From Pseudomonas svalbardensis (GTDB lineage: Bacteria > Pseudomonadota > Gammaproteobacteria > Pseudomonadales > Pseudomonadaceae), in assembly GCF_030053115.1 (NCBI RefSeq), contig NZ_CP125619.1, positions 3,793,501 through 3,857,500 on the forward strand: a stretch of 64,000 nucleotides of DNA. Reading direction: 5' to 3'. This document shows positions 7,107-35,531 of the stretch, in pieces. Under the pieces are notes generated by a model. It did not search any database. It was given only the letters and a program-made list of their open reading frames with translations, and was not told the origin of the DNA. The translations under genes were made by a program, and so were the position numbers. Position 1 is the stretch's first letter, and every line of letters starts with the position of its first letter.

Positions 7107-7503
7107 TACCGCGATGGAATCTGTGCGAAATGCACTCCGATTTCAGCTCGGTGTAAGTCTCGATCACTGCGCAACCACACTCGCGCCCCATACTCGATTA
7201 CTGACCAGGCACGACCTTGCCGCAGACACCGCGGACGACCCCGTTGCAGGCCGGTCGGTATCTCGACGGGCATCATTTTTTCAGGCCCGGAGGTTCTACT
7301 AAACTACTCAGGACTACGCAGATTCAGTGAATGATTTCACAGTACTGCTAAAGTGAAAGCACGCGTCGCCACATGCTCCCAAAGCCTGTAATTTTCGAAG
7401 GTGGGTGGCTAATCACGGTGACGCCAACGCTCTCCAGCGAGGGCAGCATGAACTGAATCGCGTCATCATCGAGCGCGAGGGGCAGCAGACATGAGGTCTA
7501 AAT
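7107..7503. other. Intergenic region upstream of the EPS priming transferase
   Basis: I see no gene on the plus strand. On the minus strand, about 7352-7490 is an open frame of roughly 45 residues (including Q-F-M-L-P-S-L-E-S-V-G-V-T-V-I-S-H-P-P) that reads like protein but has no good start codon and no recognised family. The promoter of the downstream sugar-transferase gene should lie here. I could not define -35/-10 boxes with confidence. Confidence 0.4.
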
Positions 7504-8928
7504 ATGATATTTGAGCCCAACAGCACCCGTTCCGTTCTCCAGCGAAGAAGCAGTACCAGTATCGTTATTCAGGCTGGTCTCGATTGTGTTGCGGTGACCG
7601 GCGTTGCGTGGTTTTTGATCAATTATCATATCGGCTTCATAACGCAGTCCTATGTCATCCTGCTCCTGTTGCTGCTGGGGGCGTTGGCCGTTGTGTACGA
7701 CCACTATGCTATTTACCGCAGCAATGTTGTTTTTACCGTCAAAGCCTTCAAGCTTTTGAAAGCATGGACTGCAACGTTTGGCTTTCTCGTTGCCATGGCC
7801 TTTCTTACCAAGCAAAGCGAACAGTACTCGCGTTTATTGGTCGGGCAGTTATTTGTTATTGGATATTTTGCTCAGTTGCTTTTGCACCTCGCGACACGCG
7901 AGATGCAGAAGACGTTTTTGGCCCACTCGACTCAATTGGAAAACTCGCTCATCATTGGCTCGGGCGAACTGGCCAGCTATCTTCACAAGAAGATCAGCAA
8001 TAATCCCTGGCTCGGTGAGCGCATAGTCGGCTGTGTGTTGATTGGCGCGGACGATGATCGGGGAAAGGAAAGTCTGGAAGGCGCGCAACGCCTGTCGATA
8101 CTGGGCGATATCTCCGACCTTGATGAGTTAGTTGTTAAACATGCCATTCGTACCGTCTATTTCGTGACCCCACTGGGTGGCTCAGAGGTCATCCAGGATG
8201 TTTATTTAAGGCTGTTCGATAAACACATCTCTGTTAACTGGGTGCCTGACATTTTCTCGTTGCGCCTGATCAACCACAGTGTTCGCGAGATTGCCGGCAT
8301 TCCCGTGCTGACCTTGTCTGAAACTCCGCTGATGGGGATGCGTCTGTTTCTGAAGAACCTTGAAGACAAAGTCCTGGCCTTTCTCATTTTGGTTCTTGCA
8401 GCGCCAGTCCTGGTAGCCGTCGCCATTGCCATCAAGCTCGATAGCCCCGGCCCCATATTCTTTCGTCAGCAGCGCATGGGGTGGAGTGGAGAAGCTTTCC
8501 GTATCTGGAAGTTCAGAAGCATGGTCGTCCATCAGCCGGAAGACGGCGTCGTCAAGCAGGCGCAAAAGAATGACCCGCGCATGACCAGAGTTGGGGCCTT
8601 TATTCGGCGAACCAGCCTCGATGAACTACCGCAGTTGTTCAACGTTTTGATGGGGGAAATGTCTCTGGTGGGGCCTCGCCCGCACGCTATTCAACACGAT
8701 GTGCAGTACTCGCCCGATGTCTCTGGCTACTTTGCGCGTCACAACATTAAGCCGGGCATCACAGGCCTGGCTCAGGTACGTGGCTATCGTGGTGAAACGA
8801 AGGATATAGATCAGATGATCCGGCGTGTTGACTCGGACATTGAATACATTAACAACTGGTCGCTATGGCTCGATTTCGTCATTCTTGTACGAACGGTGTT
8901 TGCCTTCTCCGGCAAGCATGCCTATTAG
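7504..8928 (+). CDS. Undecaprenyl-phosphate sugar phosphotransferase (WcaJ/GumD-like), EPS priming enzyme
   Basis: This 474-residue membrane protein has four N-terminal helices (about residues 15-115), a Rossmann-like CoA-binding middle ([12 protein letters not shown] at about 150), a further helix near 285-305, and a C-terminal bacterial sugar-transferase domain. That domain carries [20 protein letters not shown] and S-L-V-G-P-R-P at about residues 340-395. It transfers a hexose-1-phosphate from a UDP-sugar to undecaprenyl phosphate, the first committed step of the polysaccharide repeat. It is convergent with the glycosyltransferase operon. The length matches the WcaJ family. Confidence 0.92.
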
Positions 8929-12837: not shown

Positions 12838-13773
12838 TCAACTAGCCACACGGCTGCAGCTATAACTACCTATCAACACGCTGTCTATCTTTTTAAAGGT
12901 GTCGTCCAGCAGCTCATAGCGCCTGCGATACATGGCACGTTTTTTTGAAGCAATACTGTCGAGCGGTTTCCTGGACAGCATCATGGGAATCTCAAAAAAA
13001 TCTTCGTGCTCCGATGGAGTCGCTCCATGCTCTAACCAGATCACATCATAATTTGCCGCCAGTTCCAGAGCTTTGTGAGCGCCAAAATACGGATGACGAT
13101 GGTGGCGATACCCATCCCCTACCGCATAAATTTTTTCAACACCAATATTGATGGCAATGTATTTAATAACTTCGATCAGAAAGCTTCTTGGCCGAAGGCC
13201 TTCAAAGTCTTTTGTCAGGTCCCTATAGATACTCAACGACAGTTCACTCTCGACGCCTTTATGTATCCCTTGAACGGCGCCGATAAAAATACATAACTCT
13301 GTGTCCGTGCGACACAAGGTGAAGGCTATTGATGCAATGCGCAGGTCACCCTGAAACAAGTTCAGTACCAGCTCGCCTTCACGCATAAACCATATCGGAC
13401 GATCCAGCACCAGGGAACAGCCAGCCGCAAACTCCGACAAATCACTCAGCATCAAACTGTCACTTCGCCCCAACAGCAATAGCTGCGGACAGCTTTTGGT
13501 AACCACTTCGTAATGCGAGGCCAACACACTAAGTTTATTCTTGGGGCTCCAGCTGCTACTGATGTATGGCCAATGAACAACGCCTACACAATCCCCGCCT
13601 AACTTCTCAACACCGGACTTACCCAGAGCGCTCGACATACGCCCGCAAAACAACTTTAGCTCGGACCAGTTTTTTGCGACTAAAACCAACATTTTAAATT
13701 TATTATTCAATGCCCTTAAGGAATACCCTGCGTGTAAAAAAAACAAGCTCTTTAATATCACCCAATTGTTCAT
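12838..13773 (-). CDS. VirK/YbjX family protein (DUF535)
   Basis: This 311-residue protein has the DUF535 features G-A-V-Q-G-I-H-K-G-V, Y-R-D-L-T-K-D-F-E-G-L-R-P-R-S-F-L and A-V-G-D-G-Y-R-H-H-R-H-P-Y-F-G. Family members (VirK of Shigella, YbjX of E. coli) are linked to outer-membrane integrity and peptide resistance, but their biochemistry is not settled. It is embedded between two glycosyltransferase genes of the same operon, 8 bp after the upstream gene. Base composition is lower in GC than its neighbours. A role in the export or modification of this polysaccharide is inference. Confidence 0.8.
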   Translation of the reverse strand: MNNWVILKSLFFLHAGYSLRALNNKFKMLVLVAKNWSELKLFCGRMSSALGKSGVEKLGGDCVGVVHWPYISSSWSPKNKLSVLASHYEVVTKSCPQLLLLGRSDSLMLSDLSEFAAGCSLVLDRPIWFMREGELVLNLFQGDLRIASIAFTLCRTDTELCIFIGAVQGIHKGVESELSLSIYRDLTKDFEGLRPRSFLIEVIKYIAINIGVEKIYAVGDGYRHHRHPYFGAHKALELAANYDVIWLEHGATPSEHEDFFEIPMMLSRKPLDSIASKKRAMYRRRYELLDDTFKKIDSVLIGSYSCSRVAS

Positions 13774-18835: not shown

Positions 18836-20212
18836 TCAAAGCCATCTAGCAAGATCCGTCACTAACTTCCCGAACAAAGCCCCCACCGCCAGCATTGGCA
18901 GCACTACCAGTTCACGCTTGAGACTGAACAGCCCCAGACGACAATTGACATAAAAAACCAGGATAAGCGTAGGAAACGTGTACAGGGCAGCGCCCCAAAT
19001 CGCATATTTGACCCCACCAATCGCCAGTAGCAGAGGCAGCAGCACCCACAACGAGACCACGCGAATAATGTTATCCATGGCCTGGTACTTGGTGAGTCCC
19101 AAGGCAATCCAGACCTGATTCGCCAGCATGTAGCGCATTGTGAAAAAAGAGAGTGAAAGAATGGCCATCATGTTGCCAGCCTGAGCGTAACGCTCATCGT
19201 ACAAGATGCTGATGAGCAGTGGACTGCCGGTCAGGAACAGTCCACAGAGAAACAGGAAGGCAAGATCGATCATCAATTTCAAGCGGTAGTACAAAGCGTG
19301 GAGCCTTACGGTGTCATTAGTTCTTGAGGCCTCACTGAAGGCCGGCAAGGCAACGGCACCGGCTATCTTTTGCATCGCAAGCTGAACAGCTCCCAAAATC
19401 AGCACGGCAATGGAGTAAACGCCCAGTTCGCTGGTCGTCATGCTGCCGCCGAACCAGATACGATCACCGTACATGGCCAATACGCCCACTGCCGACGACA
19501 ACAGTATCCAACGGCCGAAGCCGACTAATTCATCGAGCGCAGAACGCTCCCACTGTAGACGGTTAGAAGGGCCCTCAAACCAGAAATGCCCCAGCAGCGT
19601 GCTGACCATCGATTGGACCAGACCTGCAATCACCAGCGACCAGATGGACCTGGTGAAGTAACCGATGCCCAGCATGACCAACAGCCCGACGACCTGAGAC
19701 GCAAACTCGCTGAGTACCACTTTCTTTTGCTGGAAAGCGCGCACTGCCAGGTCGATTTTGGTCGACTGAAAACCAACGATGATTGCCGAGAAACCGGTCA
19801 CGGCCAACACCAGCGGCAACTCGGGTGCAGCGTAGGTGGAATTGGTCGACCACAGATTGAGGGTCTGTGCATACCAGGCGAGGGCCGCGAGGAGAAGTGT
19901 CAAAGCAAAAAGGATAAAGCCACGCACGATCTGCACGGTCCAGATGGTATTGAGAAATACCGGATCGTCGCCACGCGGGCTCTGGATGATGTTCTGGCGC
20001 AAGCCGACATCGGAAAGCATGTGCAGAATCAGCGAAACGGTGATGGCGATCATCATGATGCCGAACATCTCCGGCATCAGCAGACGGGCCATTATCAGGT
20101 TGCCGCCCAAGCGAAAGGCTTGAGACGTAACCAGCGCCCCCAGATTCCATGCCCCGGCAGAGATCGCTCGCTTACGAAGGCCCAACGATGGCGACAAATC
20201 AACTAACGACAT
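18836..20212 (-). CDS. Polysaccharide flippase (Wzx-type, MOP superfamily)
   Basis: This 458-residue integral membrane protein has about 12-14 hydrophobic helices spread over its length. The N-terminus (G-A-W-N-L-G-A-L-V-T-S-Q-A-F-R-L-G-G-N-L-I-M-A-R-L-L) is typical of the polysaccharide transport/PST family. It should move the undecaprenyl-linked repeat unit to the periplasmic face. It is the first gene of the long minus-strand operon and diverges from the polymerase/ligase gene, so a bidirectional promoter probably lies between 20213 and 20307. Confidence 0.9.
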   Translation of the reverse strand: MSLVDLSPSLGLRKRAISAGAWNLGALVTSQAFRLGGNLIMARLLMPEMFGIMMIAITVSLILHMLSDVGLRQNIIQSPRGDDPVFLNTIWTVQIVRGFILFALTLLLAALAWYAQTLNLWSTNSTYAAPELPLVLAVTGFSAIIVGFQSTKIDLAVRAFQQKKVVLSEFASQVVGLLVMLGIGYFTRSIWSLVIAGLVQSMVSTLLGHFWFEGPSNRLQWERSALDELVGFGRWILLSSAVGVLAMYGDRIWFGGSMTTSELGVYSIAVLILGAVQLAMQKIAGAVALPAFSEASRTNDTVRLHALYYRLKLMIDLAFLFLCGLFLTGSPLLISILYDERYAQAGNMMAILSLSFFTMRYMLANQVWIALGLTKYQAMDNIIRVVSLWVLLPLLLAIGGVKYAIWGAALYTFPTLILVFYVNCRLGLFSLKRELVVLPMLAVGALFGKLVTDLARWL

Positions 20213-20307: not shown

Positions 20308-21831
20308 ATGCCTGAGCACTTCCGAGCGTTAATCGTCATTCTGGTCCTTACTGGCATCGTATTTGCCATGGCACGTCGACCAGCAGCAGACCTGATTCCC
20401 GACCGTAATTTCACTCGTCGGCGCAATCTGTGGTTCATATTGACGCTTCTGGCATTTGTGTCGCACAGCTTCTGGGTGTACGCGGGCATTGCCGCGATCG
20501 TTTTGACCTTCGCACAAAATCGCGAACGCAATCCCGTGGCGCTATTTTTCCTTCTGCTGTTTCTCATCCCGCCGGCCACGGCGGAGATTCCGGGCTTCGG
20601 CCTGATCAACTATTTTTTTGCCCTTAGCCATATTCGTGTGCTGGCACTGTGTGTGTTGCTTCCGGTTTTTTTCGCTCTGCGCAAGCGCGCCGACACGGTC
20701 CCTTTCGGGCGCACCTGGCCTGACAAACTGTTAGCCGCCTACCTCCTGCTGACGAGTCTGCTTTTCCTCCGCGAAACCACCGTCACCGACACCTTGCGCC
20801 AAATGCTCTACCTGTTCATCGAAGTTTTTTTGCCTTACTACGTTGCCAGCCGGGCGCTGAAGAACCTCAGCGACTTCAAGGACGCTCTGTTCGGTTTTGT
20901 ACTCGCCGCCATGGTGCTGTCGCTTATAGGTCTCTTCGAATATGCCAAGCACTGGCAGCTGTACAGCGCGGTTGTCTACGCCATGGGCATGCAATGGGAT
21001 CCCGGCTACTTGAGCCGTGGTGGCTCATTGCGCGCCAGCGCCACTACCGGCCAGGCCATTGCGCTGGGCTTCGTCATCAGCGTGGCCATCGGCTTTTACC
21101 TGTACTTGCAGGAGGAGGTACGTAGCAAATTGCAGCGCAGCCTCGGCGCACTGTTGCTCGCCGGTGGTCTGTACGCGCCGCTGTCGCGTGGCCCCTGGAT
21201 CGGTGCAGCCGTCATGATCGTCGTGTTCATCGGCACTGGCCGTAAAGCGATCAGACGCCTGATGCTGCTGGCCGCCGCCGGGGTGCTCGCCCTTCCCTTG
21301 CTGGCCGTCGTGCCGGGCGGGCAAAAAGTGCTCGATCTGCTACCGTTTATCGGCACGGTGGAAGTCGAAAATATCACCTACCGGCAGCGCTTGATTGATA
21401 ACGCCGTGATCGTTATCCAGCGCAACCCCTGGCTGGGTTCTTTCAATTTCCGCAGCACACCGGAAATGCAGTCCATGATTCAGGGCCAGGGGATCATCGA
21501 TATCGTGAACACCTATATCGGCATAGCGCTGTCGTTCGGTTTGGTTGGTTTGACGCTTTTCGTGGTTTTTTTCGTCAGTGTTCTGCAGGGCATTCGCAAG
21601 GGGATGCGTTCGTTCCCCAACGAAGACGATGAGGCACGCCGACTCGGACGTGCACTTCTGGCGACACTGGCCGGGATCCTGATCACCATCGTTACCGTTA
21701 GCAGTATCACGGTGATCCCCGTGGTGTATTGGTCGGTGGCTGGACTGGGCGTGGCCTACGCTCAGATGGCACGCAGGCTCAAGCACACCTCGACGGCCGT
21801 CACGGCGAGTGCCCATCTCCAACTCAGGTAG
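20308..21831 (+). CDS. O-antigen ligase / Wzy-type polymerase family membrane protein
   Basis: This 507-residue protein has about ten to twelve membrane helices and one larger periplasmic loop near residues 340-410 (Y-R-Q-R-L-I-D-N-A...R-N-P-W-L-G-S-F). The L-S-R-G-P-W-I-G motif near 293 is the conserved S-R-G/S segment of the O-antigen ligase/WaaL-Wzy superfamily. In a Wzx/Wzy EPS locus it should polymerise repeat units at the periplasmic face. Six bases separate it from the secreted hydrolase gene downstream, so both are probably one transcript. Confidence 0.85.
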   Translation: MPEHFRALIVILVLTGIVFAMARRPAADLIPDRNFTRRRNLWFILTLLAFVSHSFWVYAGIAAIVLTFAQNRERNPVALFFLLLFLIPPATAEIPGFGLINYFFALSHIRVLALCVLLPVFFALRKRADTVPFGRTWPDKLLAAYLLLTSLLFLRETTVTDTLRQMLYLFIEVFLPYYVASRALKNLSDFKDALFGFVLAAMVLSLIGLFEYAKHWQLYSAVVYAMGMQWDPGYLSRGGSLRASATTGQAIALGFVISVAIGFYLYLQEEVRSKLQRSLGALLLAGGLYAPLSRGPWIGAAVMIVVFIGTGRKAIRRLMLLAAAGVLALPLLAVVPGGQKVLDLLPFIGTVEVENITYRQRLIDNAVIVIQRNPWLGSFNFRSTPEMQSMIQGQGIIDIVNTYIGIALSFGLVGLTLFVVFFVSVLQGIRKGMRSFPNEDDEARRLGRALLATLAGILITIVTVSSITVIPVVYWSVAGLGVAYAQMARRLKHTSTAVTASAHLQLR

Positions 21832-21836
21832 AACCC

Positions 21837-24455
21837 ATGATCCAGTTGTTGCGCCGCCCCCAGATACTGCTCCTGCTGTTGTTTGCTATTTGGCCGTTGC
21901 GTACCTGGGCGTCGGACTGGGTCGTCAGTGTGGATGAGCGCAACGGCCTGCCAACGCTGATGCGTGGCGGAAGTCCGGTAGTTGCTACGACATTCTCGTT
22001 CTTCGGGCGCAACTGGGAATGGACGTATTTGCACACTGAATTCAAGGTAAACACCCCTTATCGATACTCCCTTGCTGGTAAAAACAAAGCGCTGGATTTC
22101 GACTTGACTGCGCAGATTCAGAAGCAAAACGAGCAAAAGCTGATCTGGAACTTTGCCCTGGATGCACACAGCGGGAAGTCTGGCGTTTCAGGTGGTGGCA
22201 TCGTCTTCGAATTCGACCCCGCTCTTTTCGCTGGAGAAATGGGCGAGCCCACTTTGCTACCCGACAACCGCGGCTGGTCCTGGGGCAATGCACAAGGTCG
22301 ACGCATCGAAATGCGCTTCGAGCCCGCACTGGCGGGTGTGTACTTTGAACCGGGCAGCAAATCCGAGATCCGCGCTTTTTTCTACAAGGACACAATCAAA
22401 ACTGGTCGTCAGGATTTCACAGCCACCTTGAGCGTTTCGGGCGATGTAGCGGTCGGCCCGACCACTACCGAGCGCTTCGGGCTGTCGGACCCAAAGAGCT
22501 GGCCGACTGACAAGCTCGACAGGAAAACCTCGCCGGTCGACCTGTCCTTTCTCAACGCTCAGGAAAAACCTGCAGGCAAGCGCGGCTTCATCAAAGCCTC
22601 CGGCGAGCAATTGCTGTTTGCCGACAACACTGCGGCGCGTTTCTGGGGCACCAACCTTTCGGCCTACACACTGTTTCTCACGCCAGACGATGCAATCAAG
22701 CAGCAGGCCAAACGCCTGTCGGCACTGGGCTTCAATCTTGTACGACTGCACCACCATGACTCGCCATGGGTCTTCCCGAACATCTTTGGCGACGGTAGGG
22801 TCACGCGCAGCACCCAGCAACTTAGCCCGGAATCGCTGAAAAAAATCGACTGGTGGATCAAGTGCCTGAAAGACGAAGGCATTTATGTGTGGCTCGATCT
22901 GCACGTCCAGCGAGTCTTTACTGAAAACGACAACATTTATGGCTTCGATGAATTGCCAAAAGAAGAGCAAAATTTTACCTATCTCAAGGGCTATTCCTAT
23001 GTGAATCTCACCATTCAGAAAGCCATGAAGCGCTTTACCGAAGCCTACCTGACCCATGTAAACAGCTATACCGGTCTCGCCTACAAAGACGACCCGGCGA
23101 TTGCCGCCGTACTGATTACCAACGAAAACGACGTCACCAACCACTTTGGCAACGCCCTGTTGCCAGACAAGAATTTGCCGAAGCACAACCGCGTCTACAT
23201 GGCGGAGGCCGAGGCTTTTGCCAAACAGCACAATCTGTCTGCAAACCAGACCTGGCGCTCCTGGGAGCCAGGCCCCTCCAAGCTGTTCCTTAACGATCTG
23301 GAGCGACGTTTCAACGTCGACATGATTCAACACCTGCGTGGAATAGGCGTGAGGGTCCCCATCGCCACGACCAGTAGCTGGGGCCGCAATGGTCTGAACT
23401 CCCTGCCGGCCCTTACTGCCGGCGACGTAATCGACGTCCATAGCTACGGGGGCTCGGGACAGATAGAGAAAAACCCGCTCTACAGCGACGGCATAGTGAA
23501 TTGGATTGCCGCCGGCCAGGTCGCCGGCAAACCCCTGACCGTCACCGAGTGGAACAATGAGCCCTTCCCGACACCAGACCGTCACTCGCTGCCACTCTAT
23601 ATCGCCGGCACCGCCAGACACCAAGGCTGGGATGCACTGATGCAATATGCCTACAGCCAGGAACCACTGGGGGGCGAAGGAATGAGTGCCAACAACTGGC
23701 ACGCCTATAACGACCCTGCAATGCTGGCCACCCTGCCCGCCGCCGCCTTGCTTTATCGCCGTGCAGACGTTCGCGAAGCAACAACGACCTACGTCTTCGC
23801 GCCGACGCCAGGCACCCTGTTCAACCAAATAATTACACCGGCCAACTCTGCTCTACTGCGCACAGCCATGGAGAAAGGCAAGCTGGAAATCGCGATGCCA
23901 CAGACGCCGGAATTGCCTTGGTTGCAGCGGAGCGTTATCCCAAGCAATGCACAGGAATTTCATGACCCTGACCAGTCGCTACTGGACGCCAATGCCAGCG
24001 AGTCCACGACCGACACGGGTGAGCTAAAGCGCAATTGGAAACAAGGTGTCTACACCATCAATACGCCGCGCACCCAGGCCGCTACCGGCTGGATCGGCGG
24101 CGAGTCGATCAGCCTTGGCAACATTCAGGTTCAAGTGAAGACCGCCAACGCCAGTGTGGTAGTGCAAAGTCTGGACGACGCACCTTTGGGCCGATCACAG
24201 GATTTACTGATTTCGTTAGGCACCCGTGCCATCCCCCAAGACGGCGACAAAATACCTTTTTACGTTGAGCCCCTCGAGGGCACGCTAACCATCCAGGCGC
24301 CGCAAGGCTTGACACTGTTTACCCACGGCATTCTGGGGCAAATGAAGAAGCTGCCCGCGACCTACCTTGATGGGCGCTATACAATCAAGTTCGACAGCTT
24401 GCAGGCGTCGAATTGGTTGTTTTTGAAAAAAGGCGTCACGCAAGCACAACCTTAG
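21837..24455 (+). CDS. Secreted clan GH-A glycoside hydrolase (cellulase-like) of the EPS locus
   Basis: This 872-residue protein has a signal peptide ending T-W-A at about residue 25. An N-terminal beta-rich domain (about 30-260) precedes a TIM-barrel-like catalytic domain. In that domain F-W-G-T-N-L-S, N-L-V-R-L-H-H-H-D-S-P-W, I-T-N-E-N-D (candidate acid/base Glu) and V-T-E-W-N-N-E-P (candidate nucleophile Glu) occur in clan GH-A order. A C-terminal beta domain follows. It probably trims or cleaves the polysaccharide in the periplasm. The start at 21837 was chosen because the upstream extension runs inside the preceding gene and lacks signal character. Confidence 0.82.
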   Translation: MIQLLRRPQILLLLLFAIWPLRTWASDWVVSVDERNGLPTLMRGGSPVVATTFSFFGRNWEWTYLHTEFKVNTPYRYSLAGKNKALDFDLTAQIQKQNEQKLIWNFALDAHSGKSGVSGGGIVFEFDPALFAGEMGEPTLLPDNRGWSWGNAQGRRIEMRFEPALAGVYFEPGSKSEIRAFFYKDTIKTGRQDFTATLSVSGDVAVGPTTTERFGLSDPKSWPTDKLDRKTSPVDLSFLNAQEKPAGKRGFIKASGEQLLFADNTAARFWGTNLSAYTLFLTPDDAIKQQAKRLSALGFNLVRLHHHDSPWVFPNIFGDGRVTRSTQQLSPESLKKIDWWIKCLKDEGIYVWLDLHVQRVFTENDNIYGFDELPKEEQNFTYLKGYSYVNLTIQKAMKRFTEAYLTHVNSYTGLAYKDDPAIAAVLITNENDVTNHFGNALLPDKNLPKHNRVYMAEAEAFAKQHNLSANQTWRSWEPGPSKLFLNDLERRFNVDMIQHLRGIGVRVPIATTSSWGRNGLNSLPALTAGDVIDVHSYGGSGQIEKNPLYSDGIVNWIAAGQVAGKPLTVTEWNNEPFPTPDRHSLPLYIAGTARHQGWDALMQYAYSQEPLGGEGMSANNWHAYNDPAMLATLPAAALLYRRADVREATTTYVFAPTPGTLFNQIITPANSALLRTAMEKGKLEIAMPQTPELPWLQRSVIPSNAQEFHDPDQSLLDANASESTTDTGELKRNWKQGVYTINTPRTQAATGWIGGESISLGNIQVQVKTANASVVVQSLDDAPLGRSQDLLISLGTRAIPQDGDKIPFYVEPLEGTLTIQAPQGLTLFTHGILGQMKKLPATYLDGRYTIKFDSLQASNWLFLKKGVTQAQP

Positions 24456-24519: not shown

Positions 24520-26166
24520 TTATTGGGCGTCAAAATCAAACGATGGAACATAGCCTGCGCCGAGCAGATGTGGACATTTCGACGATACAAAATCATCACT
24601 TAATAAATCATCCGAACTTTTATACTTATTCGTGAGAACCCCTGTGATATTTAAAAGAGTATGTGGCAAGGAGGATATGCTGATTTTCTGACTTTCTCTT
24701 TCCTTCAACTTTAAAAGCTTGAGCGATTGCTGGCTTGAAACATTATCGGACGCCCAGATAAATGCCGAAACCGGGAGATCATATTTATTGCCAATTCCAT
24801 GACCCAAGAGCCCTCGACTGTCATCCATCATGTTTTCACCATGATCCGATGAATAAAACAAGACAGATGGTTTTTTGCTTGACTTCAATTGATCAATAAT
24901 TGCGCTTAATAACCAGTCCGTATATAAAATACTATTATCATATTCTGCGGTAATCTTGTCTTTGAAGCTGCCTGTTGACGGCTTGAATTTATCGAATTGT
25001 TCCGGGTATCGGCGTGAATACTCGAAATGACTACCCTTGACATGAATAAATATGGCTTTCTTTTCTGTCTCGCTTTTATTTAGTATTTTTTCATATTCTG
25101 AAATCAATGCTCCATCATAGCTTCTCTCAAAATATTGACGGTATTGTGCCTCTGCGGCTATTTGTGGAATTATTCCGCCAAAACTATCAACCTCCTGTAC
25201 AGACAACCAATAGGTCATGTACCCGGCTGCGCGATATATACCCACCAATGATTTTGTTGACGCAATGGCGTCCCAATCCGATATAGGCTCCAGGCTCAGC
25301 ATTGAAGGAACCGCGAACGAAGTATAGGGGGCTGTCGTGCAGATCTGATTAAACTTGAAAAGCCCCTCCTGCTTACTAAGATTCGGGGTTGTTTCCTTGT
25401 TATAACCGTAGAGGGACCAGTTGTGCGGCCGTGATGACTCACCGATCACAAAAACAATGGTTTCTATATTTGATTGATTCGACAGGCTGGTTATTTTTAC
25501 ATCAGATTCCCGACGGCGCTTGATAAGCTCCTCCGTCCCCAAATACAAGTTTGCAGTAAGGGCAATTTGCGACAAATAACCTACTGGTGTGCTTTGATCT
25601 TTTGCAAGGAGATCCATGACTGCAGATTTCCCGAAAGAATTAAGTTTGACGGTTTTATAAAAGTACGCCCCATACCCCACTAGCAAGGCACTAACAACCA
25701 AAACAAAAATACCTTTGTTTTTATATAATTCGCGCTTATGCAGACCTATTAACCCAGCCCCATAGCAAAATATGAAAACCACCAAAACGATACTGATGGG
25801 CTGCCAATAGGTCGGTAGAAATTCGCTGGCTTCCTGATAGTTTGTCATGCCAATAAATATATAGGCAGCTGTTAATCTCGAGTTGAAATTCAAAACCAAA
25901 AAGAGATCAATAGCTGCTACCAAATAGAACGGCAACAGAATAATGTGAACCTTGAATTGATTAGATGCAATAAATCTAATTGCCAACAGCCACAACACCG
26001 ACATGCCAAGGGTGTAAAAGACCAATAAATCAATTTTAGAGTACTGATGGTTTGTTAGCGTTCTAACAATCAACGGTGATAGCAGAAATGACCATAATAC
26101 AAAATTTGGCCATTCTGCTTTAAATATTTTTGATGAGTAATCGATAATTTTGGCAGAGTTTTTCAT
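24520..26166 (-). CDS. Phosphoethanolamine transferase (EptA/OpgE-like sulfatase-fold)
   Basis: This 548-residue protein has five N-terminal membrane helices (about 20-180) and a periplasmic alkaline-phosphatase-fold domain. V-I-G-E-S-S-R-P-H-N-W-S-L-Y-G-Y supplies a metal-binding Glu, T-T-A-P-Y-T-S-F-A-V-P-S holds the candidate nucleophile Thr, and S-S-D-H-G-E-N and G-H-G-I-G-N hold metal ligands. It would transfer phosphoethanolamine to lipid A, a glucan or the EPS. The gene is markedly AT-rich compared with its neighbours and faces against them, suggesting separate acquisition. An ATG at 26196 would add ten residues but sits only 1-2 nt from the AGGAGG motif. Confidence 0.85.
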   Translation of the reverse strand: MKNSAKIIDYSSKIFKAEWPNFVLWSFLLSPLIVRTLTNHQYSKIDLLVFYTLGMSVLWLLAIRFIASNQFKVHIILLPFYLVAAIDLFLVLNFNSRLTAAYIFIGMTNYQEASEFLPTYWQPISIVLVVFIFCYGAGLIGLHKRELYKNKGIFVLVVSALLVGYGAYFYKTVKLNSFGKSAVMDLLAKDQSTPVGYLSQIALTANLYLGTEELIKRRRESDVKITSLSNQSNIETIVFVIGESSRPHNWSLYGYNKETTPNLSKQEGLFKFNQICTTAPYTSFAVPSMLSLEPISDWDAIASTKSLVGIYRAAGYMTYWLSVQEVDSFGGIIPQIAAEAQYRQYFERSYDGALISEYEKILNKSETEKKAIFIHVKGSHFEYSRRYPEQFDKFKPSTGSFKDKITAEYDNSILYTDWLLSAIIDQLKSSKKPSVLFYSSDHGENMMDDSRGLLGHGIGNKYDLPVSAFIWASDNVSSQQSLKLLKLKERESQKISISSLPHTLLNITGVLTNKYKSSDDLLSDDFVSSKCPHLLGAGYVPSFDFDAQ

Positions 26167-26410
26167 TTGATAATTATTCTCGTAGGTAACCCGCATTCCT
26201 CCTCAGAGGGTAGCTTCAATTGGCGCGCTCGCTGTATCTTGTTCGAAGTATTCTCTCCTTTGGCGTTCCAAACGTAGCGAGTCTCGGCTATTGCCAGCAA
26301 GCTTGTAGCGAAAAATCCAACTTGACCTTTAATGTAATGGTCAGACGGATCGCACTGACGTTTCATTCGGTGCTTGCACAGCAATAGTGCCCAGGAAATC
26401 GGAGATCAGG

Positions 26411-27388
26411 ATGAAATTTTTGGTGGTGGGTGGCGCGGGCTATATCGGCTCGCACATGGTGAAGCAGCTACTGAGTGCAGGTCACGATCTTGTGGTGGCA
26501 GACAATTTCTCAACGGGTTATCGCAGCGCGTTGAGGGGCGGGACGTTGGTCGAACTGGACATAGCCGATGAACAGGCGCTGCAGGCCCTGTTTGCGGGAC
26601 ACCACTTCGATGCCGTGTTCCACTTCGCCTCCTTTATACAGGTGGGCGAATCCGTCGCTGAACCTGCCAAGTACTATCAGAACAACTTCGCTGCCACCCT
26701 GACGCTGCTCCAGGCGATGGTTTGCGCCGGGGTTAAAAACTTCATTTTTTCCTCGACCGCCGCCGTCTATGGTGACCCGGTGTATGTACCGATCGACGAG
26801 GAGCATCCCAAGGTCGCGATCAGCCCTTATGGTCGCAGCAAGTGGATGGTGGAGCAGATGCTTGAAGATTTCGACCGCGCCTATGGGCTGAAATCGGTCT
26901 GCCTGCGCTACTTCAACGCCGCCGGAGCAGATCCTGAAGGACAGTTAGGTGAACGCCATGAACCGGAAACTCACCTGCTGCCCCTGATCCTGCAAGCCGC
27001 CTCCGGACGGCGCGCAACCATCACCGTCTATGGCCGTGATTACGACACGCCTGACGGCACTTGCATTCGCGACTACGTCCACGTTGTCGACCTCGTTGCC
27101 GCTCACGCGCTTGCGGTGGATTATCTGCTGGCAGGGGGTGCAAGCACGGCGTTCAACCTCGGTAACGGTCAAGGTTTCTCAGTACAGCAAGTGATAGATA
27201 CCGCGCGCTACGTGACCGGCCAGGATATCTCTGTCAGCGAAGCGCCACGTCGCGCGGGCGATCCACCACGCCTTGTGGCCGATCCCCGCAGGGCCAACAC
27301 ATTACTTGGCTGGCAAGCGCAATTTGGCTCACTTGAACAGATAGTGGCGCACGCCTGGAGCTGGGAGCAGAAGTATCCTTGGCACTGA
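26411..27388 (+). CDS. galE: UDP-glucose 4-epimerase
   Basis: This 325-residue SDR-extended enzyme has the NAD-binding V-G-G-A-G-Y-I-G-S-H at the start, S-S-T-A-A-V-Y-G-D-P, the catalytic Y-G-R-S-K and R-Y-F-N-A-A-G-A-D-P, all GalE hallmarks. It interconverts UDP-glucose and UDP-galactose, supplying the EPS precursor. The start at 26411 follows a GGAG motif at 6 nt; the longer frame start has none. It stands alone on the plus strand between the two minus-strand EPS blocks. Confidence 0.95.
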   Translation: MKFLVVGGAGYIGSHMVKQLLSAGHDLVVADNFSTGYRSALRGGTLVELDIADEQALQALFAGHHFDAVFHFASFIQVGESVAEPAKYYQNNFAATLTLLQAMVCAGVKNFIFSSTAAVYGDPVYVPIDEEHPKVAISPYGRSKWMVEQMLEDFDRAYGLKSVCLRYFNAAGADPEGQLGERHEPETHLLPLILQAASGRRATITVYGRDYDTPDGTCIRDYVHVVDLVAAHALAVDYLLAGGASTAFNLGNGQGFSVQQVIDTARYVTGQDISVSEAPRRAGDPPRLVADPRRANTLLGWQAQFGSLEQIVAHAWSWEQKYPWH

Positions 27389-27432: not shown

Positions 27433-28221
27433 CTAGTAGTAAGAGCGGTTTTCGGGCTCGGCTTTGTTCAACACCGTGCCAATCAGATTGGCTGTCCCAA
27501 GATGATGCAGACTTTCCTCGATCTCTTTCTTGCTGTTCAATCCATTAGCGACAACGAGCAGGACGCAGTCGAACCTGGGCAAGACGTTAATCACATCATC
27601 GGAACTCAACAACGGCGGCAAGTCGAAAATCACGATGCGTGAGTTGTAGCGCTCGCGCAGATCAGCAATCAAATGGCTCACTGCAGGCGATGACAACACC
27701 TCGGTGGAAAGAGGAATCGGCTCACGCGTCGGCAGGACCACAAAGCGCGGCAAGGTCGGATTGACCAGTACTTCTTGCAGTTCAGCTTCATCTGCCAACA
27801 ATTCATTAAGCGATTGATCCATCGGCAGACCCAGATACTCACCCACCTTCGGACGACGCAAGTCGAAGTCCACCAGCAACGCCGTCTTGGTCGTGTGATG
27901 CGCGATACTCATCGCCAGGTTTATAGCCAACACCGTCTTGCCTGCCCCCGGAGTCGGCGAGGTGATGGCGAGCGTGCGCCAGCCATTTTCTTCCATGATT
28001 TTCAGCACTTGTGTACGCAGTAGGTCGAATGCCCCGCCCATATTCGAATTTTTGTTGTAAGCCACAATGCGGTTGCGCTCAAGGTGATCTGGTCGCAAAG
28101 GTACAACCTTGGTTTGCACATAACTGAGTGCATTCAGACCTGTGGACTGCGCGGTCGGTGTCATGGCTTTTGACGAGGTCTGTTGCTCGGCGTTTTCGGT
28201 ATCGAGATTGATTATTTCCAT
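27433..28221 (-). CDS. CpsD/CapB-type bacterial tyrosine kinase (EPS control)
   Basis: This 262-residue cytoplasmic BY-kinase has Walker A T-P-G-A-G-K-T at about 88-94, Walker A' L-L-V-D-F-D-L-R-R-P-K at about 114-124 and Walker B I-V-I-F-D-L-P-P-L. The C-terminus ends E-N-R-S-Y-Y, a short tyrosine cluster for autophosphorylation. It pairs with the separate Wzc-like membrane protein encoded 11 bp upstream (the split activator-kinase arrangement) and controls chain length and export through phosphorylation cycles. Confidence 0.9.
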   Translation of the reverse strand: MEIINLDTENAEQQTSSKAMTPTAQSTGLNALSYVQTKVVPLRPDHLERNRIVAYNKNSNMGGAFDLLRTQVLKIMEENGWRTLAITSPTPGAGKTVLAINLAMSIAHHTTKTALLVDFDLRRPKVGEYLGLPMDQSLNELLADEAELQEVLVNPTLPRFVVLPTREPIPLSTEVLSSPAVSHLIADLRERYNSRIVIFDLPPLLSSDDVINVLPRFDCVLLVVANGLNSKKEIEESLHHLGTANLIGTVLNKAEPENRSYY

Positions 28222-28232
28222 GGCTATATTCC

Positions 28233-29792
28233 TTATGCAAACCGGCCCAGAGCTTTAAACATCAGAAGATCCAGAGGCATGTAGAGGAAGTGCAGGAGCA
28301 CCAGAAAGATCGCGATTATCACGACTCCACAGACGATCAATAGCGTTCGCCACTTCCTGCGACGTGCCAGTTCAGCCTTGGTATGAATGTAGGGAATGGA
28401 AACCAATACGCGTCTACCCAGCACGCTGGCCAAGGCCTGGGCACCGCGCACACGCTGACTCATCATCTCGAGGAGCATCACCAGCGCGCCAGCACCCGCC
28501 GGGGCAAGCAAGAAACCCATGGCAACCACTTTCTTACGGTTCGGCCGTACCGGCTTCTCGGGCATCAGCGGTGACTCCAGAAGAACAAAACGCTCGGCTT
28601 TGTTTTCCTGCTCTAGGCTTTCGGAAATTTTCGCACCCATTTCCTTCGTGCGAATCTCCTCATATTTTTTACGAGCGTTATCATGGTCACGCATCACCGT
28701 GACCAAGCCGCGTTCGACTTGCGGCGTCTCAATAATTTGTGCCTCGAATTCAGCTATTTTTCCGAGTATTTGCTGCTTTTGATCGGCCAGCGACTTGATA
28801 CGTGCTTCTGCTGCGGAGATCCGCGCCTGGGCCTTGGCAACGTCCAGATTGACCGAAGCCGCTGCACCAGCACCTTTGCCAGCCTCAAGTGCAGCAATTT
28901 TGCGTTTGACGGCACGCACGTCGGGGTGGGCTTGCGTATACAGCGACTGCAACCGGGTGTACTCCGCTTTGAGGCTAGCCAGATCCTGTGGTTTATCAAC
29001 TGCCGCACCGGGTGCTCCAGGCTTGGTCGCTAGCCCGGCATTCGCGGCGGAAAGCTCCAACTCATTGAAGCGCAACTCCTCACGGGCAGTTTTGTAGTCA
29101 CGGTCGACCTCTTTAAGCTCGGTTTCGGCGCGCGTCAACATATTCATGCGCAGTTCCTGATGCTCGGGCAGCGCGTTGCTGTGTGCCTGCTTGAAGTCCG
29201 CCAACCGGTTCTCCAGGGCTTCCAGTTCCACCCTGAGCTTGTCCGCCTCCTGCGTCAGGAACTCTGTCGTTTCACTGGCGCGTTGGGTGCGCTGCTTGAT
29301 GTTTTCATCCAGAAACAGCGTCACCAGCTCCTTGGCAACTTTGTTCGCAATCTCTGGCTGCCTGTGCTCAAAGGAAAGACGGAAAGCAATCGTCACCTCT
29401 CCGCGCCCCTTAACGACAGCACTGACCAGGGAGACCGCAATCGCATTGCGCATTTCTTCGATCTTCTCGGTAACGCTCAGTTGCCGACTTTGCGAAGCAA
29501 AAAGATTGTATTTGTCGATGATCCCTTCCAGATGCTCACGGGTCATCACGCGCTGGCGAATGACTTCGATGCGCTCATCGGCAAAGGTATTGTTGTTGGC
29601 CGCCACCAGGTCTGGCGAAATCTGTTGAGACTCCACCAGAATCGTGCCGGATGACTCATAGGTCGGCGGGAGAGAGATCGCTACCGCTATGCACACGCCG
29701 AGTATGACCACGAAACTCACGATCAACAGCAGGGCGTGGTGCTTGATGATAGCTAGGTAGTCGTTGAACGACATTTCGTATTCAGAGGCCAT
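28233..29792 (-). CDS. Wzz/Wzc-like (GumC family) polysaccharide co-polymerase
   Basis: This protein of about 519 residues has a first membrane helix at about 20-42, a long periplasmic coiled coil (about 190-400, rich in E, A, L, K heptads) and a proline-rich P-E-K-P-V-R-P-N-R-K-K just before the second helix near 425-445. A third helix lies near the C-terminus. This matches GumC/Wzz proteins, with the extra C-terminal helix seen in some family members. It lacks its own kinase domain, which is encoded next door. It sets chain length and links the polymerase to the outer-membrane exporter. ATG at 29792 was chosen over a GTG at 29801. Confidence 0.9.
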   Translation of the reverse strand: MASEYEMSFNDYLAIIKHHALLLIVSFVVILGVCIAVAISLPPTYESSGTILVESQQISPDLVAANNNTFADERIEVIRQRVMTREHLEGIIDKYNLFASQSRQLSVTEKIEEMRNAIAVSLVSAVVKGRGEVTIAFRLSFEHRQPEIANKVAKELVTLFLDENIKQRTQRASETTEFLTQEADKLRVELEALENRLADFKQAHSNALPEHQELRMNMLTRAETELKEVDRDYKTAREELRFNELELSAANAGLATKPGAPGAAVDKPQDLASLKAEYTRLQSLYTQAHPDVRAVKRKIAALEAGKGAGAAASVNLDVAKAQARISAAEARIKSLADQKQQILGKIAEFEAQIIETPQVERGLVTVMRDHDNARKKYEEIRTKEMGAKISESLEQENKAERFVLLESPLMPEKPVRPNRKKVVAMGFLLAPAGAGALVMLLEMMSQRVRGAQALASVLGRRVLVSIPYIHTKAELARRRKWRTLLIVCGVVIIAIFLVLLHFLYMPLDLLMFKALGRFA

Positions 29793-29812
29793 ATTTCTCA
29801 CACAGCTGAATG

Positions 29813-30954: not shown

Positions 30955-31512
30955 CTAAGGCACGACCAGCGTATCGCCGGCTTTAAGTAGAAAATTGGTG
31001 GACATGTCATCCCCCGACATCAACTTGCTGTAGTTGACGCGCAGGATCTCTTGTCTAGCCCCATTGAGTCGCACGACCTTAATGTCGTCCTTATCGGCGA
31101 ATTTGTCGAGCCCGCCCGCCATGCTAATTACCTGCAGCACTGACGTTTGACCTGACATATGCACGGTGCCGGGTTTCAGCACTTTGCCCTGAACGTAGAC
31201 GAGATTACCTTCGGTGCCGGTGACGACAACGCTCACCTGCGGATCAGGTATGAAAGCCTCAAGCTTGACAGCGATTAGCTTCGCGACAGCGGTGGCATCA
31301 AGCCCCGCAACAATGACTTGCCCTGCCAGCGGGAAAGTAATGCTGCCATCGGGAAGTACGCGTACATCCTGTTTGAGCTTGTCTTCGCCCCACACGGAAA
31401 CAGAAAGGTTATCTCCCGGACTCAGCCGGTAAGTCGGATCGTTTTCGACGGCATTGGAAATGCTGGGCCAAACAGCCAGCGCGCAGAGCACAGGTATCAA
31501 TGAACGGAACAT
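30955..31512 (-). CDS. Polysaccharide export protein (Wza-like)
   Basis: This 185-residue protein has a signal peptide M-F-R-S-L-I-P...S-N-A, then the Poly_export domain Y-R-L-S-P-G-D-N-L-S-V-S-V-W-G (about 28-42) and L-P-D-G-S-I-T-F-P-L-A-G. A SLBB domain follows (V-Y-V-Q-G-K-V-L-K-P-G and A-G-G-L-D-K-F-A). No lipobox cysteine is visible at the cleavage site, and the protein is shorter than classic Wza (about 380 residues), so the separate barrel gene downstream may complete the channel. The ATG at 31512 follows GGAGG by 7 nt. First gene of the operon. Confidence 0.9.
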   Translation of the reverse strand: MFRSLIPVLCALAVWPSISNAVENDPTYRLSPGDNLSVSVWGEDKLKQDVRVLPDGSITFPLAGQVIVAGLDATAVAKLIAVKLEAFIPDPQVSVVVTGTEGNLVYVQGKVLKPGTVHMSGQTSVLQVISMAGGLDKFADKDDIKVVRLNGARQEILRVNYSKLMSGDDMSTNFLLKAGDTLVVP

Positions 31513-31974
31513 CGGGATCCCTCCGTCTAAGTAGCCATGCAAGGAGTCTAGAACAAAAAAACCTAGTCAAATCACTCTAGCCTATTTCACGCCAAAGAAA
31601 TGCCTAAACAGCATTCCCCTTGAGCGTCTGGGCGGTCAATTTCGCCAATGCAACACACCCGAAACCGGAACGTTAGTACAAAACAGCAGAATCGTGTTAT
31701 TTAACAACAGCTTGGAGCAAGCAATCCACCCGCAATGTATTTCGCGCCAATATTATCTACACCATGCCCGCTTGAACCGGCTCAACTGCGACACTGTCAG
31801 CCTGACGATGACTACGTTTGTCAGTGCAACTAACTGATATCAGCAATTACAAACCAAGCATCATTGCAAGACCGGTATTATCCGCAAAAACAATACATAA
31901 AGTCGTGTGCCCAGCCAGCCACTAGAGTGACCATCTAAACAGCCCTTATTGCCGAAAACGTTAACAACCACCAC
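31513..31974. other. Long leader/intergenic region upstream of the EPS export operon
   Basis: 462 bp with no coding potential that I can defend on either strand. It is relatively AT-rich. It must hold the promoter of the minus-strand export operon and the 3' end of the CTERM-protein transcript. I found no convincing sigma-54 or sigma-70 boxes and no terminator-like hairpin. Confidence 0.4.
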
Positions 31975-32472
31975 CTATATCTTCCGTCGGTTGGCGACCA
32001 CAATAAAACCAAACAACGCGGAAGAAAATAACCATGCTGCCGCAGAAAGCGGTACTGCATTGGGTTGGTTGATATCAGATACCCCCACCAGACTTTTATC
32101 CTGGAGAGATGAATCAATCTTGAAGTTCTTATTGTCAACCGCCGCCATTAATCCGTCACGCGAAGAAGAATTGACGGATACATCCACGCCCGAGTCTGCG
32201 TGATGAATGACACTGTTAACTTTCGCAGAATGGGCATCATCGACGTAAATATCAGTGATCAATGAAGGCAAGCCAAGGCCCTTTCCAAAAGTAAGCAGTG
32301 CGCCACCCGCGTGCTCTTTGAGAGCAGTACAAAGTTGAGGCCCTAACTCCTCGCACGCGCTGCTTACGCGACTAATTTCATAGGCCAAACTGGTCGCTTG
32401 AGCACTAGCAACGGCTGCACCATTCAGGATCACAGACAACAACACGAATTTAATGACAAGTGTTGAGCGCAT
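31975..32472 (-). CDS. Secreted protein with VPxxA-CTERM-like sorting tail
   Basis: This 165-residue protein has a signal peptide (about 1-25, ending A-S-A) and a polar, Ser/Asp/Asn-rich middle with two cysteines (C-E-E-L-G-P-Q-L-C). The C-terminus reads V-P-L-S-A-A-A-W-L-F-S-S-A-L-F-G-F then R-R-K-I: a short V-P-L-x-A motif, a hydrophobic helix and a basic tail. That is the tripartite architecture of VPLPA/PEP-CTERM proteins processed by exosortases. It lies just upstream of the Wza-like gene on the same strand. No exosortase gene is visible in the window. The family of the middle domain is not recognised. Confidence 0.75.
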   Translation of the reverse strand: MRSTLVIKFVLLSVILNGAAVASAQATSLAYEISRVSSACEELGPQLCTALKEHAGGALLTFGKGLGLPSLITDIYVDDAHSAKVNSVIHHADSGVDVSVNSSSRDGLMAAVDNKNFKIDSSLQDKSLVGVSDINQPNAVPLSAAAWLFSSALFGFIVVANRRKI

Positions 32473-33023
32473 AACACCGCCTCCTTGCGTAGGGGGTTAT
32501 TCTTTTGTCGGTTGAAGGAATCTTTATCGGCTAAATTGAGCCTATAAGCACATCGCCATTACGTCAATAGCTCGTCACAATAATAAATCGAAATTTTATC
32601 TTAGGGAGGGTGGCGTCAAAATAACGCCACGACAAGCACGTCAGTCCAGTGAATTCTATCCATGTGAAATAGCATCACGCATGGGCGCTAGCCCGCACCA
32701 GGACACTGGCACACGACCCGTCGCAGCGCCTTGCACCGGGTCACGAAGCACCTTCGCAATGGCATGGGCTCGACCGCCGACGACGCCTGTAACGGCGGGT
32801 TTGTCGGCAACTTTCTGAAAGTACCCGGCGGCTGAGAGTTTTTGACGCATGAAGACAGCATGGCAGGTAAAGATTCCCCGTGCATTCTCAGCCCTGGAAC
32901 ACTGTAGAAGTCTCGGCGCTGCGCCAGGGAACCATGCTCAACCTCCCTGGCACCCGCGCCGTGCAGATCAATGCAATGCGCGTAAAAGGCATCGCGATTG
33001 AAGACAGGATGAATGACTGACCA
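32473..33023. other. Region without a confident gene; possible coding remnant
   Basis: A 7-bp inverted repeat GTGGCGT/ACGCCAC (32610-32616 and 32624-32630) lies about 140 bp upstream of the CTERM gene and could be an operator. Between about 32860 and 33020 on the plus strand an open stretch ends V-E-V-S-A-L-R-Q-G-T-M-L-N-L then R-M-N-D-stop. It reads like the tail of a real protein but I do not recognise it. A 64-residue minus-strand frame (32656-32850) also has no recognisable family. Confidence 0.35.
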
Positions 33024-35017: not shown

Positions 35018-35353
35018 TCATTTGCGCGCCAACTTGTACCGGACGCACTCCTCATAAAAGCTCTCGCGCAGGGCTGCGGGCTTCATCCGCGAATGACTGT
35101 CATAGGTCTGCTCGGTAATGCCCATCGCCATCATGTGCATCCACGACTTGCTGAACTTGTAGGTATGTAACTTCTGCCGCGCTGCATACAGTGAAACCCC
35201 GGACAGCTTGAGTTCCTGGGCTCTCGCCGCGGTACCTGCGCCCCAGCTGCAAAGGTAACGATCATTCGATGCCAGTTCTTTGGCCTGAACTGAGGCGTCA
35301 ACGCTCGCCAAGCCTAACGAAATCAGCGCAACCATCACATTCCGCATTTGCAT
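35018..35353 (-). CDS. Hypothetical secreted protein
   Basis: This 111-residue protein has a signal peptide (about 1-24, ending V-Q-A) and two cysteines, C-S-W-G-A-G and E-C-V-R-Y. The rest is rich in basic and aromatic residues. No family recognised. Several ATGs occur in the first 20 residues of the open frame (35395, 35353, 35347); 35353 gives a standard signal peptide and follows GGGAT. Confidence 0.55.
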   Translation of the reverse strand: MQMRNVMVALISLGLASVDASVQAKELASNDRYLCSWGAGTAARAQELKLSGVSLYAARQKLHTYKFSKSWMHMMAMGITEQTYDSHSRMKPAALRESFYEECVRYKLARK

Positions 35354-35531
35354 TCGATCCCAACTAACTGAAAATAAATTGATTTTGGTCAACATCTTCA
35401 GACTTCGGGGCCAGCAAAATGCCTTAAGTGCGCTATAGCTTGTTTTCTCAGTGTTTTACGGACGTTTTTTGCGGCATTTCAATCCTTTGCTATAGCTAAC
35501 ACTCTCTCCCGCCAACGAATGAGGCAACGGA

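Follow-up and report, generated by a model that had tools for sequence, protein, structure and literature searches.

An EppA-like gene in an EPS cluster

The gene examined here lies on the minus strand of a 64,000-nucleotide stretch of the Pseudomonas svalbardensis genome (hereafter the window); the genome itself is a single contig of 6.36 Mb. The features of the gene are as follows.

31975..32472, minus strand: eppA-like gene, a 165-aa open reading frame with an ATG start, matched by NF046088 with 55.3 bits in two stretches
32480..32485, minus strand: AGGAGG ribosome-binding site, read from the sequence, 7 nt upstream of the eppA-like ATG
32395..32472, minus strand: predicted signal peptide, residues 1–26, assigned by eye and aligned to NF046088 positions 1–23 as a separate match
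32056..32394, minus strand: middle, residues 27–139, a presumed decayed cargo (pN/pS 0.636 in 17 named long forms; pLDDT mostly <50)
31978..32055, minus strand: tail, residues 140–165, with VPLSA at 32041–32055, a helix and R-R-K at 31981–31989

The C-terminus reads V140-P-L-S-A, then a hydrophobic helix, then R162-R-K-I165 and the stop; in the AlphaFold2 model the helix spans residues 142–163. The protein has the features of an exosortase substrate, namely the motif, the hydrophobic helix, the basic end and an N-terminal signal peptide, the last identified by eye. The initial annotation had read this three-part architecture from the window and had placed the gene in an EPS export neighbourhood, and both readings were borne out. 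Homologues from named organisms belong to Pseudomonas. Two Pantoea-named records (L155 and L158) bear the Pseudomonas operon and a short EppA; the name of L158 is probably wrong.

The surrounding cluster contains the following genes.

30955..31542, minus strand: outer-membrane export protein (OPX); TIGR03027 129.7 bits (cut-off of 180 not reached), PF02563
29813..30952, minus strand: outer-membrane beta-barrel-type operon protein; weak TIGR03016 and TIGR03014 matches, conserved family A1
28233..29801, minus strand: chain-length determinant (PCP); TIGR03007 239 bits (cut-off of 278.85 not reached)
27433..28221, minus strand: tyrosine autokinase; TIGR03018 151.6 bits (cut-off of 230.65 not reached)
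26387..27388, plus strand: UDP-glucose 4-epimerase GalE; TIGR01179 438.6 bits, above cut-off
20308..21831, plus strand: Wzy_C (polymerase/ligase-type) membrane protein; PF04932 41 bits, above cut-off
18836..20212, minus strand: flippase (Wzx type); PF13440 136.4 bits
9621..10376, minus strand: WecG-type glycosyltransferase; PF03808; its P. fluvialis counterpart borders an xrtD-prsT-ATPase block apparently lost here
7504..8928, plus strand: undecaprenyl-phosphate glucose phosphotransferase; TIGR03023 470.6 bits, above cut-off; adjoins a probable xrtD relic

For the export genes of the window, the XrtA-system models TIGR03027, TIGR03007 and TIGR03018 scored best, all under their cut-offs.

Several other genes lie in or near the cluster. 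A 908-codon frame at 21729–24455 has a GH5 cellulase domain (27 bits, barely above the cut-off) and is retained beside the export operon in 23 of 26 loci. Between it and galE, inside the cluster, is a phosphoethanolamine-transferase-like gene (24520–26196), seen in 5 of the 26 loci within the stretch examined. A DUF535 protein is encoded among the glycosyltransferase genes (12838–13773) and occupies the same place in most of the relatives' clusters seen. The frame at 35018–35395 encodes a secreted-looking protein of 125 aa that has no match in NCBIfam or Pfam.

One tail and no exosortase in the genome

The curated EppA model NF046088, which has 58 positions, aligned to the window protein in two separate stretches: model positions 1–23 with the signal peptide and positions 25–58 with the tail, covering the last 33 residues. 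The total of 55.3 bits does not reach the curated cut-off of 90. As expected for an EppA gene, the window gene adjoins EPS export genes.

A search of the whole genome with the exosortase model PF09721 gave no matches, which extends to the genome the initial annotation's statement that the window encodes no exosortase; the same model found two exosortases in P. fluvialis, scoring 237.5 and 233.4 bits. PrsT and the exosortase-associated ATPase had no match within the window. A second copy of the tail had been proposed as something to count across the genome, and no convincing one was found with NF046088, TIGR02595 or TIGR03370. At E ≤ 10, NF046088 matched both ends of the eppA-like gene and one 581-codon frame (14.5 bits), and TIGR02595 matched five other places, the best with 18.2 bits. 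This last place is above the 16-bit cut-off and was rejected because the region has no such protein end. TIGR03370 had no match in the genome at E ≤ 0.1. The window tail was not among the matches of TIGR03370 or TIGR02595 and reached neither cut-off.

Tail, operon and exosortase across Pseudomonas

Among 149 genomes of the genus, NF046088 matched in 26, once per genome; 17 of these matches are the 58-aa form, above the NF046088 cut-off, and nine are the long form. The chain-length determinant of the operon was found in exactly the same 26 genomes. PF09721 matched in three of the 149 genomes and in none of the 26 with tail and operon. The three (G013, G054 and G148; loci L034–L036 and L089–L091) are without the eppA-linked EPS operon and have an exosortase beside a single large protein whose end resembles PEP-CTERM, a separate pair of one enzyme and one substrate.

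We also collected 74 named loci by means of the operon's outer-membrane protein. The eppA gene lies just upstream of the export genes in 67 of them (49 short forms and 18 long forms, the latter including P. fluvialis), and in the remaining seven genomes it is present elsewhere. An exosortase search in 50 of the 74 named genomes found 49 without the enzyme and P. fluvialis with two.

A related cluster with XrtD

For 15 of 19 proteins from the window cluster, the same cluster in P. fluvialis has a counterpart at 47–80% identity. The EppA-like protein is 34% identical and one glycosyltransferase 31%; no DUF535 or phosphoethanolamine-transferase gene was found in P. fluvialis in this comparison. 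The P. fluvialis EppA-like protein has 224 or 232 aa depending on the start, and its C-terminal end, VPLPAAAWLFASALFGFVLMANRRKV, contains a VPLPA motif. TIGR03370 gave it 28.8 bits in a six-frame search, which reaches the cut-off of 25.35, and 24.5 bits, just under that cut-off, in another search.

Beyond the WecG gene, P. fluvialis encodes XrtD (TIGR04152, 559.7 bits; cut-off 400), PrsT (299.9 bits; cut-off 312.2) and the exosortase-associated ATPase (306.9 bits; cut-off 324.5), the last two both just under their cut-offs. The second exosortase match of P. fluvialis (237.5 bits, L207, G902:C1:613342-614142) lies on a different contig from the EPS cluster. In a more distant genome, G831, XrtD (539.3 bits) and PrsT (288.8 bits) were found, with the ATPase detected by tblastn at the contig end. 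Next to this block are the same export genes, together with an EppA-like gene.

A FastTree tree was built from the chain-length determinant, the kinase and the outer-membrane protein of 27 taxa, including 25 of the 26 Pseudomonas (G079 was left out as its operon is outside its examined stretch). P. fluvialis and G831 were split from the remaining taxa with a support of 0.999, and the long forms made up one group (1.0) separate from the short ones (1.0). The simplest account is a single loss of the xrtD block and a single shortening. The reverse history, in which xrtD, prsT and the ATPase gene were gained later in P. fluvialis and were never present in other Pseudomonas, would agree with P. fluvialis being the sole Pseudomonas examined that has the block in this cluster. 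We consider it very improbable, as the outgroup G831 has the same block beside its EppA-like gene and export genes, and relics of xrtD, described below, are found inside the exosortase-less clade and share the orientation of intact xrtD relative to WecG.

Relics of xrtD and probably of a second PEP-CTERM gene

The XrtD, PrsT and ATPase sequences of P. fluvialis were searched against the window and 99 Pseudomonas loci. Two probable relics lie in the window.

7309..7488, plus strand: probable xrtD relic (end of an EpsI-type protein) with an internal stop; aligns to XrtD residues 376–440, p ~0.045
31657..31931, minus strand: probably what is left of the second PEP-CTERM gene that P. fluvialis has at the same position; score 56, clear block 31839–31931

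With the default search at E ≤ 1, a single fragment was found outside the four comparison genomes. This fragment, in G079, corresponds to XrtD residues 487–515 (69% over 29 residues, E 5e-7); it meets a stop one residue later, as XrtD does, and the sugar-transferase gene begins 56 nt beyond. A further 20 stretches yielded SPHAPKACIFEGGWLIT in G135, aligned with XrtD 397–413 (E 0.037) at the same place. The xrtD fragments have the orientation relative to WecG of the intact P. fluvialis gene. The relic of the window is borderline when taken alone, with 4 of 150 random windows scoring as high, and window positions 7309–7503 share 188 of 194 aligned bases with the clear relic of G135.

The relic sites of nine genomes were then compared with random windows from the same pieces. 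With P. fluvialis XrtD as the query, none of 150 random windows scored as high as the sites of G079, G135 and G107, 4 did so for the window, 8 for G129, 20 for G128, 26 for G046, 45 for G058 (where the best alignment fell elsewhere in XrtD) and 46 for G137. With G831 XrtD as the query, G135 alone stood out of the nine sites (0 random windows); L200, a second and distant exosortase, was left out as a query. A joint column-shuffle test over the nine genomes gave 462 versus 279.8 (sd 13.3) for the shuffles (0/300), and 281 versus 218.5 (sd 10.8) when the two best genomes were removed (0/300), to be read beside a reversed-XrtD control that was also somewhat high (4/300, and 1/300 minus the two best). 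A PrsT control was not high (185/300 both times).

The second relic lies in the 432 nt that separate eppA from the OPX gene (31543–31974). Its score of 56 compares with a null maximum of 44 (0/200; 0/100 in the window). It was clear in 3 of 18 long-form gaps, namely those of the window, L095 (1/100) and L099 (2/100), and not in the other 15; none of 49 short-form gaps scored 45 or higher.

Constraint has moved from the motif to the helix

We compared conservation along the tail in the long forms (98 tails, being 102 hits less P0055, which has a different end, and three proteins of at least 200 aa), the short forms and the P. fluvialis-like proteins (less P0147 and P0149, which are under 199 aa). 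In all 98 long tails, A144, W147, L148, S151, A152, L153, G155, F156 and R-R-K are present. The motif proline P141 is found in 82/98, with serine instead in 16/98, and the second proline of the motif is kept in 35/98. The short forms have the motif proline in 48/49 and the second proline in 0/49; A, W, A, V, G, F, V, A and N in the helix stretch occur in 49/49, and R or K is third from the end in 42/49. The 49 P. fluvialis-like proteins show the reverse pattern: VPLPA is nearly invariant (each proline in 48) and the inner helix half is variable. According to the initial annotation, the resemblance to an exosortase substrate would be chance if close homologues were without the motif or the basic end; with the basic end in 98/98 and the motif proline in 82/98 long forms, the resemblance held.

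The shift is also seen in the fewest changes needed in the motif and in the inner helix half. This count additionally omitted L147, whose marker was not read, the short pieces P0098 and P0100, and P0133 and P0146, whose tails are a few residues out of register (P0146 has VPLPG). The ratio of motif to inner-helix changes was 2:59 for the P. fluvialis-like proteins (n = 47, with the exosortase checked in P. fluvialis alone), 28:34 for the long orphans (n = 96), 24:14 for the short forms (n = 48) and 8:13 for the named long forms (n = 17). Against the P. fluvialis-like set, the Fisher p values were 2.6e-8, 3.5e-11 and 1.8e-4, respectively. A conserved single face of the helix was not significant (p 0.15–0.26).

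Among the 17 named long forms, pN/pS was 0.518 for the signal peptide, 0.636 for the middle and 0.132 for the tail; for the short forms it was 0.141 for the signal peptide, 0.240 for the linker and 0.179 for the tail. Within the tail, the motif gave 0.286 (long) and 0.308 (short), and the helix with the basic end 0.094 (long) and 0.148 (short). Because the tail is conserved in 98 homologues and has a pN/pS of 0.132 versus 0.636 for the middle, its exosortase-type form is more than chance. In AlphaFold2 models the P. fluvialis protein has a beta-rich cargo predicted with good confidence (mean pLDDT 82.4); the window protein has a mean pLDDT of 51.8, with a mostly unstructured middle and the tail helix alone well scored. 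The conservation of the tail, the pN/pS values and the predicted folds therefore indicate that the cargo was let go and the tail kept, and that constraint shifted from the cleavage site to the helix.

These values bear on two other explanations. The eppA-like gene might be a functionless leftover that has merely not been lost yet, given that the middle of the long form is almost unconstrained (pN/pS 0.636) and that the neighbourhood holds remnants of xrtD and probably of a second substrate gene. This is unlikely: eppA is present in 26/26 and 74/74 genomes with the operon, the tail (0.132 long, 0.179 short) and its helix (0.094 and 0.148) have low pN/pS values, and the gene is intact although its former neighbours have decayed. 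We give an equally low probability to an unrecognised membrane enzyme, encoded elsewhere, that took over from XrtD and continues to cut the protein, or transfer it, at the tail. The strong purifying selection on the tail and the motif proline still found in 82/98 long and 48/49 short forms would fit such an enzyme, and the partner survey covered the stretches around the cluster. However, the motif is otherwise loose (second proline in 35/98 long and 0/49 short forms), motif changes relative to the helix are far commoner than in the P. fluvialis-like proteins, and a peptide of about 10 residues would be all that remained of the 58-aa form after cutting. There is also a single tail per genome, and no uncharacterised multi-pass protein is constant within 10 kb of the eppA-like gene.

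The initial annotation had regarded this gene as the best lead in the window to an unrecognised sorting system. That suggestion fares poorly, with one tail per genome, no constant uncharacterised multi-pass protein within 10 kb, a motif that has loosened (proline to serine in 16/98) beside a helix that has tightened, and a former enzyme identifiable as XrtD.

A sorting signal that probably became a membrane anchor

The window gene probably encodes an EppA-like protein that is an orphaned XrtD substrate, its uncut tail serving as a permanent inner-membrane anchor near the export machine. Its origin as an orphaned XrtD substrate is strongly supported, and its present function as a membrane anchor is what we infer. 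The initial annotation had offered a plain membrane anchor as the second of two options, and this is the one supported, as a prediction.

The ancestral cluster would have had XrtD, PrsT and the ATPase, as P. fluvialis and G831 suggest, with XrtD presumably cutting the EppA-like protein at VPLPA. The tree and the relics suggest that the xrtD-prsT-ATPase block disappeared, most simply in a single event, from the ancestor of the exosortase-less Pseudomonas. The enzyme-less forms have a looser motif, a tighter helix and a fast-evolving middle, for which loss of the enzyme would be the cause. Proteins of the P. putida group have no cargo and consist of 58 aa of signal peptide and tail, the direction of this change being suggested by the tree. 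After removal of the signal peptide, EppA is predicted to be a single-pass protein with its N-terminus in the periplasm and R-R-K in the cytoplasm, and its helix would contact one of the membrane parts of the EPS export machinery. A further step, which we regard as an evenly balanced possibility, is that a sorting tag became a gene: selection would have moved from motif to helix, the cargo would have been shed, and the 58-aa tag would now be a membrane subunit or regulator of EPS export.

Relation to known systems

The curated EppA family (NF046088) aligns with both the signal peptide and the tail of the window protein, whose gene likewise heads the same export operon, but the family is the 58-aa form and the window protein is 107 aa longer between the ends. 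The VPLPA-CTERM/XrtD system (TIGR03370, TIGR04152) has the same three-part tail and an EPS cluster, and the P. fluvialis counterpart lies beside XrtD. In contrast, the window is without an exosortase, its tail is unmatched by TIGR03370, the second proline is serine and there is one tail per genome. PepA, the flocculation-associated PEP-CTERM protein (NF033554), is linked to EPS by name and gives a weak tail match of 16.5 bits, far below the cut-off of 80.

The PEP-CTERM/EpsH system, for which cutting of the tail was proposed, also combines a three-part tail with EPS genes (PMC1569441). The same paper gives Chlorobium tepidum as having two tails and no EpsH, and treats this as a sign of a degenerate system (PMC1569441), whereas a whole clade has kept the tail here under a changed constraint. 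In P. putida KT2440, FleQ binds upstream of PP_3126, and PP_3126–3128 are export proteins, according to two reports (PMC6120874, PMC12814882). From the gene descriptions, PP_3126–3128 and the eppA-linked operon may be the same. We found no paper on the EppA protein or its origin in the open-access literature.

The descent proposed here offers an explanation for the curated EppA family and shows a possible fate of a C-terminal sorting signal after its enzyme is lost. The label ‘VPLPA-CTERM’, which some such proteins bear in public records, need not imply sorting. P. fluvialis and the other Pseudomonas are a natural pair, with and without the enzyme, for the exosortase dependence of an EPS-linked protein.
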